Shown here in pieces: positions 13,432-36,489 of a DNA stretch of 64,000 nt. Origin of the DNA: Calditrichia bacterium (GTDB lineage Bacteria > Calditrichota > Calditrichia > Calditrichales > Calditrichaceae). The notes beneath the pieces were generated by a model. The model was not told the DNA's origin. It saw only the letters and a list, made by a program, of their open reading frames with translations, and made no database searches. Within the stretch, counting starts at the first letter, position 1. The number at the start of each line of letters is the position of its first letter. The stretch spans positions 62,001 through 126,000 of the forward strand of contig JALSTK010000117.1 of NCBI GenBank assembly GCA_026983775.1, written 5' to 3'. The translations under genes were made by a program, and so were the position numbers.

Positions 13432-13719
13432 ATGGCTTGTTCATGCCAAACACTTAAGCCGTTTAAAATAAAAATTTTTGATGATGAACGTATCGTTTTA
13501 GGGCTGGATAATGTTTTATTCACAGCGATTCTTGCCGATTTGAAGAATGATGCCGACGCAGAGGAAATTCTCTGGCGCCGTTTGCGTAATTATAACCCGG
13601 AAATAGCCGATGATGAGGAATTCGTCTTTAAACGCCATTTGATGCAACTCTATAAAAATGGTAAGAAAGCGTACGAAGCATACCAAAAAAATCAAAGACA
13701 GGCAATGCCTCAAAAATAA
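13432..13719 (+). CDS. Small hypothetical protein, N-terminal CxC, end of ars operon
   Basis: A 95-residue soluble protein I do not recognise. It starts MACSCQTLK (Cys3 and Cys5) and continues as a mostly helical, charged protein with no signal peptide or membrane segment. It follows ccdA by 22 bp after a purine-rich AGGGGAGAA stretch, so it is probably the last gene of the arsenic operon. The paired cysteines suggest metal(loid) or thiol chemistry, but this is only suggestive. A MITE-like element begins two bases after its stop codon. Confidence 0.7.
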   Translation: MACSCQTLKPFKIKIFDDERIVLGLDNVLFTAILADLKNDADAEEILWRRLRNYNPEIADDEEFVFKRHLMQLYKNGKKAYEAYQKNQRQAMPQK

Positions 13720-13721
13720 TA

Positions 13722-14116
13722 GGCTCTACCGGGATTCTTGTGGTTAAACGCCGCATCCTCAAATCATCGCGAAGTGATGCAATATGAGTAGCCACACCCG
13801 TCAGCCGCCGGGCAGGAGCGAAGCCTGCGGGCAAGATGCAACCGAATAGGGTTACCACAAAGCGGTAAAATAAACTAGGCCTTTCAATGTATAGGGTCAC
13901 CTATTTCGTTAGAACGCTCTGTGTTCCATATTCGACGCCTTCAGCGTCGCGCTCTCTTTTTCCGCTTTACCACAGGCCAAGCCTGTGGCTACTCATATTA
14001 GTATCCTTCGGATACTATTGTTTTTATATACAAGAATAATAAAACAATAAAAAATTGTTTAATTCCTTATATCAATCTTCATTAATATACGGCTTTACAA
14101 AAAACCCGGTAGAGCC
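13722..14116. mobile_element. MITE-like element with terminal inverted repeats (full-length copy)
   Basis: A 395-bp non-coding element bounded by a perfect 12-bp inverted repeat (GGCTCTACCGGG at 13722-13733, its complement at 14105-14116); similarity of the ends extends to about 20 bp. Inside are several strong hairpins: GCAGG/CCTGC around 13812-13828, GACGC/GCGTC around 13934, CCACAGGC-CAA-GCCTGTGG around 13970-13988, and an 8-bp stem with TTC loop around 13999-14017. No open reading frame fits. A related copy with the same right end lies at 35938-36138. I saw no certain target-site duplication. It is probably a non-autonomous transposable element or structured repeat. Confidence 0.75.
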
Positions 14117-15147: not shown

Positions 15148-15220
15148 AGAGAGTGTCCCGGGATAATTCAGTTTGTATTTATCAGGTGATGGGGTTCACC
15201 TTTAATGCCGTCTGGCTGAT

Positions 15221-15255
15221 AACTCCTGTTTTTTGCAAAAGCAGGAGTTTTTTTA
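15221..15255 (+). terminator. Intrinsic terminator after ZIP transporter
   Basis: An 8-bp stem (AACTCCTG at 15221-15228 with 15242-15249) followed by a run of eight T. It lies 73 bp after the ZIP stop and 17 bp before the GTPase start, so the GTPase gene needs its own promoter or read-through. Confidence 0.85.
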
Positions 15256-34943: not shown

Positions 34944-35280
34944 TCTCTTCTGAAAAATCGGATCGGATTTGAAGGATTAAAAAATTCAGGGTTCTATATC
35001 CTTTTGTGCGGGTAAGCTAATTATTAAAATTCACAATGATATCGATTTTTCAAATAAAAAATCCCGGCAGATATTCGGCTAAATTACCTGAATTTTTCAT
35101 TCGGCCCTAACGGGACGACCCAAAATACGCTCTTATCATTTCCAGCCAATAAATTGGCGGGCTAATCTCAGATTTTCCCTCCGGGAAAAGGAGTACACAA
35201 TCAAAAGATAACAGCCTTAAGTTGCCCCAGGATCGTTTAACCGTGAATTTAATACTTTTTTACATACCTTTACATTTAAC

Positions 35281-35430
35281 CTGAAATTTCAAAGTACAAA
35301 TAACAAAAATCAAATAAATCCCAAAAAACAATAACTCAAATATCAAACAACCCTTCATCCCTTGGGTGACTTATTAAATTTTGGATTTTGGCGCTTATTT
35401 GTTGATTGTTTTTTGTAATTTCCAAAATAT
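35281..35430. repeat. AT-rich interspersed repeat with inverted arms
   Basis: A strongly A-biased left half (35281-35349) and T-biased right half (35371-35430) share complementary segments, including an exact 11-bp pair CAAAAAACAAT (35322-35332) and ATTGTTTTTTG (35405-35415). The sequence looks like a widespread low-GC intergenic repeat found in environmental bacterial genomes. No coding potential. Confidence 0.55.
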
Positions 35431-35575
35431 CACTCTTGCAATTCGGTTTTAAACGGCTTTTAACCATCGCGTTCGTAGTAATCCACACGATTGGACATAG
35501 AACGTTATTTTCCCTGAGAGAATCCTGCCCACATTAAATGACCGAGCCCAAAGAATACAGATTGGTTAACAATAA

Positions 35576-35659
35576 ATCCCGTCAGGGATGTTTGCTATTA
35601 GCCCGGCGATTCATCGCCGGGAAAGGGTAGATAAAAAAGTAGCATGTCCCGTCAGGGAC
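35576..35659. repeat. Cluster of three REP-like palindromes
   Basis: ATCCC-GTCA-GGGAT (35576-35589), CCCGGCGA-TTCA-TCGCCGGG (35602-35621) and GTCCC-GTCA-GGGAC (35646-35659). The two outer ones share the GTCA loop and the following TTTG-like context, so they are variants of one unit flanking a stronger hairpin. These resemble REP/BIME-type units; no RAYT-like transposase is in the window. Confidence 0.6.
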
Positions 35660-35937
35660 ATTTGAATAAACCTCGGAGCCCGTCCGTTAACCGAGAAAGC
35701 CGTCTCCCCCACCGGGCGAGCCAAAAAACAGGTAATTTTAAAGATTTAATTTCCCGTTACATAGTGTTTTTTATTCAAATTTCGATCCATTCCGTTTTTT
35801 TCAAGAAGCGTGTTGCAAAATAATTTTTAAGTTAGAGAGTCTTTGGGAAAAAAGCCGAAGATGGAATGGATGAAGGATGCCCTTTACGAATATGCATGAG
35901 AGGAACAGAGGAATCATTACCCGAAATAGGAAATAGG

Positions 35938-36138
35938 ATGATTTATCCCGAAGTGGTATTATATAAATAGCCGCACCCGTCAGCCGCCGGGCAGGAGCGA
36001 AGCCTGTGGCTACTCATATGAGTAGCCTTCGGATACTATTGTTTTTAAATACAAGATAAACGAAACCATAAAAAATTGTTTCATTCCTTTTATTAGCCTT
36101 CCGTTAATATACGGCTTCACAAGAAACCCGGTAGAGCC
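35938..36138. mobile_element. Truncated, internally deleted copy of the 395-bp MITE-like element
   Basis: It shares with 13722-14116 the block ACCCGTCAGCCGCCGGGCAG, the hairpin around CCTTCGGATACTATTG, the A/T-rich tail and the exact right end CCCGGTAGAGCC (36127-36138). It lacks the left terminal repeat. Relative to the full copy, 158 bp between two AAGCCTG direct repeats (13821 and 13979 in the full copy) are missing, as expected from slippage or recombination. Confidence 0.7.
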
Positions 36139-36489
36139 AAGTAACGATTTATTTACAGTCCATGATTTCTGCATATTTTTCATTCAAGTCTAAGCGAATG
36201 AAAAGAATATCTGCTGCAGATCCTAATTCTTCTTTTATGTAGATTTGTAAATCCCAATATTTTGCCAATAAACATGGTTAACTCATACAGATCGACATAG
36301 AACCAATTCATTCCGTGCAAGCAGCAATAAAGTGGAAAATAATTTATGAAAGGTATTTTGAAGAACCGCACCGAAGATTTACCGTATAGAAATGAATGAT
36401 AAAATAAGCAATCCGGTCGGGCTTTCCCTCTAAAATTATAATATACTTTTTTCTTGTCTCTTTTTTTTAACAAAAAAACCTAAATATTC

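Follow-up and report, generated by a model that had tools for sequence, protein, structure and literature searches.

A multicopy MITE with ISL3-type ends behind an ars gene cluster in a Calditrichota-like genome

The hairpin-rich unit that follows the last ars-cluster gene in the 64,000-base stretch of DNA analyzed here (the window) is a genuine mobile element of an ordinary kind. It is short, encodes no transposase, carries ends that are conserved in many copies, and leaves target duplications, and an autonomous element with such ends occurs in relatives. It shares the 8-bp duplication with the ISL3 family; having no ISL3-type DDE transposase of its own, it is not itself an ISL3 insertion sequence (IS). 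Copy number, conserved ends, 8-bp duplications, and the ISL3 elements with nearly the same ends in a related genome (G005) argue together for a MITE whose 21-bp ends very probably are, or once were, recognized in trans by an ISL3-family DDE transposase (probability about 0.9). Mobilization in trans had been put forward as a possibility from the window alone (hereafter the sequence-only reading), and this same set of observations, including the autonomous ISL3 elements in relatives, now supports it well.

Architecture and genomic setting

The 12-mer GGCTCTACCGGG occurs at 13722–13733 on the + strand and at 14105–14116 on the − strand without a mismatch, in agreement with the 12-bp perfect terminal inverted repeats first ascribed to this 395-bp unit. 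When up to one mismatch was allowed, the 64,000-base window held a third match at 36127–36138 only; shuffles of the window contained 0.17 matches on average, and none of 100 shuffles reached three. The inverted repeat of the element continues imperfectly to 21 bp, with three mismatches between the arms (Table 1). Across the whole window we found 11 overlapping perfect 12-mer inverted pairs spaced 100–600 bp apart, six of which lie within the 395-bp unit. The unit is also non-coding, as had been described: no transposase appears in its list of open reading frames (ORFs), and the sole ORF of at least 80 aa that touches it is a 90-aa frame on the opposite strand, overlapping the upstream gene.

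Insertion just past an ars-cluster gene is likewise borne out, the TAA of the upstream 95-aa ORF lying at 13717–13719 and the element starting two bases after it, at 13722. This gene has no Pfam match. Its homologues in two other genomes (G012 and G013) align through residues 89–91, so the insertion spared the conserved part of the gene. The cluster further includes genes for ArsR, a low-molecular-weight phosphatase-type protein, thioredoxins, an ArsP-like permease, an SBF-family transporter, and a DsbD-like membrane protein; the permease has matches of 74–75% in Calditrichota MAGs and of 76–78% in MAGs labelled otherwise, hence the guarded term Calditrichota-like. On contig JAGHBR010000004.1, labelled Caldisericaceae, the 95-aa homologue has coordinates identical to those on contig C467 of G012, a member of the window's own family, and the public Caldisericaceae label of this contig may be wrong. 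Farther along the window, a fluoride riboswitch (Rfam RF01734, 45 bits) lies at 15176–15235, between a ZIP-type transporter gene and a dynamin-family GTPase gene; the gene downstream of it is no obvious fluoride exporter.

Table 1. Coordinates of the element, its internal features, and associated repeats (window numbering)
Feature	Position	Strand	Basis or remark
MITE, 395 bp, full-length copy of family A	13722–14116	+	40 scored places among the 105 candidates of its own genome
Left terminal inverted repeat, 21 bp, first 12 perfect	13722–13742	+	105 own-genome matches with ≤3 mismatches, control 0
Right terminal inverted repeat, 21 bp	14096–14116	−	Comparison of arms
95-aa conserved gene ending the ars cluster	13432–13719	+	Homologue alignment
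Short hairpin, CATCGCGAAGTGATG in the window	13765–13779	+	Consensus pairs columns 98–112
Internal 16-bp perfect inverted repeat, 5′ arm	13781–13796	+	Partner 13984–13999
Internal 16-bp inverted repeat, 3′ arm	13984–13999	+	
Hairpin CGACGCCTTCAGCGTCG	13933–13949	+	Consensus fold
Hairpin CCACAGGC-NNN-GCCTGTGG, near-invariant stem, hypervariable loop	13970–13988	+	
Terminator-like hairpin TAGTATCCTTCGGATACTA, then T-rich tail	13999–14017	+	Consensus match only
Second window copy, internally deleted, right end intact, left end missing	35945–36138 (about)	+	
Mosaic repeat around the truncated second MITE copy; ends ISL3-like, of a second type (GGTTCTATRTC...)	34990–36304	+	

Copies, target duplications, and nesting

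The genome to which the window belongs (4.03 Mb in 179 contigs, 99.5% complete; hereafter the home genome) contains dozens of copies with conserved ends; neither an absence of further copies nor variability of their ends, the two outcomes held to speak against a MITE, was observed. The exact 12-mer end occurs 54 times (27 per strand), against one occurrence of its reversed control (1 and 0). Within three mismatches, the 21-mer is found 105 times (49 + 56), and its reversed control not at all (0 and 0). A copy search in which 40 of 105 candidates were scored returned at least 50 matching pieces, the long ones mostly 80–92% identical to the window copy. Counting copies of 100 bp or more, we delimited at least 44 MITE copies of 143–450 bp in 43 stretches of the home genome. 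Alignment of 32 full copies (457 columns) separated subfamilies with and without an extra ~45–54 bp near position 33, and the right-hand A+T-rich part takes two forms among them. No homologue of the MITE body was found in 59 other genomes, none of the same genus. The second, shorter copy reported 22 kb away in the window is present, and it keeps the right end only, without the left end and the middle.

Target duplication is a property of the family. Across 32 of the 40 fetched copies (eight were left out for want of a recognized end), identity between the 8-bp flanks was 0.648, compared with 0.398 when right flanks were shuffled, and the duplication is a perfect 8-mer in 7 of the 32. Among duplication lengths of 4–11 bp, an excess appeared at 8 only, with none comparable at 4–7 or 9–11. 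Six of these copies (L010, L012, L014, L015, L016, and L020) share flanks on one or both sides with a second element, B, described below; without them, 8-bp identity is 146 of 208 bases (summed by hand). Six additional perfect 8-mers flank L056, L058, L065, L067, L068, and L095. The targets are A+T-rich. No target duplication flanks the window copy, where 2 of 8 bases match; this copy is therefore old, rearranged, or chimeric.

Element B is a second non-autonomous ISL3-like element, with ends GGTTCTATGTC...TGTATGGGTTA. Several B copies, such as L190 on contig C7 and L191 on C18, contain the MITE (family A) at one and the same position, whereas L189 on C45 is a B copy without it. Because the MITE lies within B, the copies on C7, C18, C73, C121, and C120 share their outer flanks and are not independent insertions; in these the MITE seems to have been amplified together with B. 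As judged by eye, both flanks of the C7 composite read AAAAATAT (8 of 8), and those of the C18 composite match at 7 of 8 bases; movement of the composite as a B unit is therefore probable. The ~1.3-kb mosaic repeat around the truncated window copy has B-like ends, and its first 800 bases recur at 82–86% identity on contigs C133, C42, C68, and C136. A clean empty site was not found, the one B copy seen without A carrying ~75 bp of other sequence at that place.

Hairpins, gene neighborhoods, and a possible RNA role

The early description of the unit as full of strong hairpins was accurate: compared with shuffles, folding gave z scores of −8.2 for RNA and −8.2 for DNA of the + strand and −9.1 for RNA of the − strand. 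A consensus fold over 32 copies comprises 50 pairs at −50.15 kcal/mol. Very strong folding, a terminator-like hairpin with a T-rich tail, a window copy that begins two bases past a stop codon, and some stems that are near invariant over 32 copies all suit the proposal of an RNA-level element at operon ends (a terminator, stabilizer, or attenuator), selected and with its copies kept for that function, yet we consider this very unlikely from the way the family is distributed and varies. Tandem gene pairs flank 21 of the 44 delimited copies, divergent pairs 14, and convergent pairs 5, with four lacking an assignable neighbor; the copies occur on either strand and have no preference for operon ends. 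The covariation term contributes only −0.37 kcal/mol to the consensus fold, and two-sided change is seen in only 4 of its 50 pairs. No RNA role is needed for conserved ends and 8-bp duplications, and at Rfam gathering scores the window yields only the fluoride riboswitch, with no family matching the element. The operon-end role raised by the sequence-only reading is therefore unsupported on two counts, copies being found in every gene arrangement and the fold having almost no covariation. For the trans-mobilized MITE that we favor, the hairpins would be secondary to the transposon role. A local effect on transcription after insertion, via the terminator-like hairpin, is possible.

By definition, hairpin repeats of the REP/RAYT or IS200/IS605 type have no terminal inverted repeat and produce no target duplication. 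We rejected this class for the present unit, which has terminal inverted repeats and a family-wide target duplication.

Genes are largely spared by the insertions. With the flanks joined across 39 of the 44 copies (L163, L166, L174, L179, and L186 were dropped as partial or at a contig edge), 5 of the 39 sites fell inside an open frame of at least 120 codons, compared with 828 of 975 random nearby points; each of the five lies 20–50 codons from the edge of its frame. Insertions in genes are thus rare or purged. Gene calls for these counts, and for the arrangement counts above, were mechanical and ORF-based.

One hairpin pairs a constant stem with a variable loop. In CCACAGGC-NNN-GCCTGTGG, the three loop columns have the three highest entropies of the 372 columns scored (1.73, 1.42, and 1.34 bits, against a mean of 0.29), and the 16 stem columns stay at 0–0.2 over the 32 copies; the loops of the other consensus-fold hairpins are nearly constant, as judged by eye in the alignment. 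The exact stem pattern occurs at 48 places in the home genome and at none in 39 relatives, with a reversed control of 0. That this is a maintained site, under a process that preserves the stem and scrambles the loop, strikes us as very unlikely. If it were, selection on the DNA or RNA hairpin, or hairpin-templated repair, would be acting on one palindrome, and the process would give each mobile-element copy a different tag.

ISL3 partners in relatives and comparison with known systems

We searched 40 genomes of the class for a partner: 10 of them encode ISL3 transposase domains, and 6 contain the 21-mer. G005 belongs to the same family and is assembled as a single contig. Its 16 ISL3 transposase hits all fall within 16 TIR pairs that span 1288 bp, and the 32 matches to the 21-mer (≤3 mismatches) are all ends of these 16 copies; the reversed control there is 0. 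A perfect AT-rich 8-bp duplication borders 10 of the 10 copies whose flanks were checked (10 of 16). The transposase carries the Pfam domains DDE_Tnp_ISL3, Zn_ribbon_ISL3, and HTH_Tnp_ISL3. G036 has one 1288-bp element with one end that is an exact match to the 21-mer pattern, and its transposase is 74% identical to that of G005. Single 21-mer matches in G003, G010, and G011 do not exceed the reversed control, itself matched once in each of four other genomes. Similarity between the MITE and the IS of G005 and G036 is confined to the terminal 15–25 bp, so the MITE body is no simple deletion product of that element.

These comparisons bear on two further explanations. Although ISL3 relics are present in the home genome, it is extremely unlikely that the unit decayed from an insertion sequence that was once complete instead of being a miniature element that amplified: dozens of copies have the same 360–450-bp body and both ends, and outside those ends neither the G005 nor the G036 element matches it. 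IS1595-like families also make 8-bp duplications, and the home assembly has no autonomous partner from which the enzyme could be directly identified, but an origin of the ends in such a family, with an accidental resemblance to ISL3 ends, is scarcely credible when all 32 occurrences of the 21-mer in G005 fall at ISL3 ends and its reversed control is 0.

A transposase with matching ends, which the sequence-only reading had named as something to look for, is thus present in relatives (G005 and G036) and absent from the home assembly. No transposase of the G005/G036 type was found there, the best matches being 29–39% identical (30%, 29%, 29%, 39%, and 33%), nor was any ISL3 element with MITE-type ends. 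The closest ISL3 relatives are one on C139 (30%, with two stops), two copies on C154 (29%), and a fragment on C179 (39%). As candidate sources, we rejected the C154 pair, the ends of which differ (about GGTTCTCTTGG...ATGGGTAA), and the C179 fragment, the end of which (GGCTCTATGTCGAATAGTGTGGGTAA) is B-like, nearer to the second element type. A 3.35-kb span of C139 between two TIR-like sequences was rejected as a full element; it contains unrelated-looking ORFs and a MITE copy. We found no further TIR-bounded transposase gene in 20 stretches that surround single TIRs or other loci of interest; ORFs were listed for four of them (L089, L090, L097, and L102), and the remainder were scanned for ends and MITE only. 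The two ISL3 copies on C154 (14500–21500; L103, L049, and L050) are apparently identical and stand in direct tandem 1440 bp apart, an arrangement that could be either a real tandem or an assembly artefact.

Lacking a matching partner in the assembly, the family has probably been orphaned. That no partner turns up in a draft 99.5% complete, and that the copies have diverged, favors an old, orphaned family; a multi-copy IS collapsed at contig ends is possible. In the mechanism that we envisage, an ISL3-family DDE transposase would act in trans at the GGCTCT... ends and insert the MITE into AT-rich sites, duplicating 8 bp. Weighing on the other side are the missing G005/G036-type transposase in the home assembly, the window copy without a target duplication, the lack of a clean empty site, and the absence of the MITE body from the 59 other genomes. 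The transposase of a G005/G036-type element would have moved the family in its own lineage, and the partner's own copy would since have been lost from the genome or missed in the draft or among unassembled repeats.

The family is a clear example, open to checking, of an ISL3-type MITE from a Calditrichota-like lineage: relatives have the autonomous element intact, and the MITE's own assembly lacks it. With such a case one could ask whether a MITE family, once amplified, is able to persist after its transposase is gone. There is a caution as well: hairpin-rich units beside operon ends can be mobile-element copies, not regulators.

Among the closest known systems, the ISL3 IS of G005 and G036 (1288 bp, with a 413-aa open frame) has the same 21-bp ends with 0–3 mismatches and, in G005, the same 8-bp AT-rich duplications. 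It differs in encoding a transposase, and past the ends it has nothing in common with the MITE. TIMEs, the Tn3-derived miniature elements, resemble the family in being small, non-autonomous, and mobilized by a transposase that acts in trans on matching ends; as characterized in PMC4133298, they differ in their ~38-bp Tn3-type ends, 5–6-bp duplications, and usual single copy. The ISL3 row for ISPpu12a in the same paper gives an 8-bp duplication (PMC4133298).

A further close counterpart is a 187-bp MITE of Microcystis aeruginosa PCC 7806 that is attributed to ISL3-family transposases in PMC11448079. As presented there, it too is non-coding, multicopy, and mainly intergenic, with 8-bp direct repeats, an RNA stem-loop, and GGCTCTTCG ends in common with an ISL3-family element (PMC11448079). 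The ends of the Microcystis MITE are imperfect and 9 bp long, its copies are identical and number 33 in one genome, and its partner resides in that same genome (PMC11448079), whereas the present element is 395 bp long with 21-bp ends, its copies are mostly 80–92% identical to the window copy, and its assembly holds no partner; the two are likened by ends and description, not by body sequence. Our literature search found no paper on a Calditrichota MITE, although one outside its coverage is possible. Because an ISL3-linked MITE has already been described in Microcystis (PMC11448079), the kind is known, and the Calditrichota-like family is a new instance of it.
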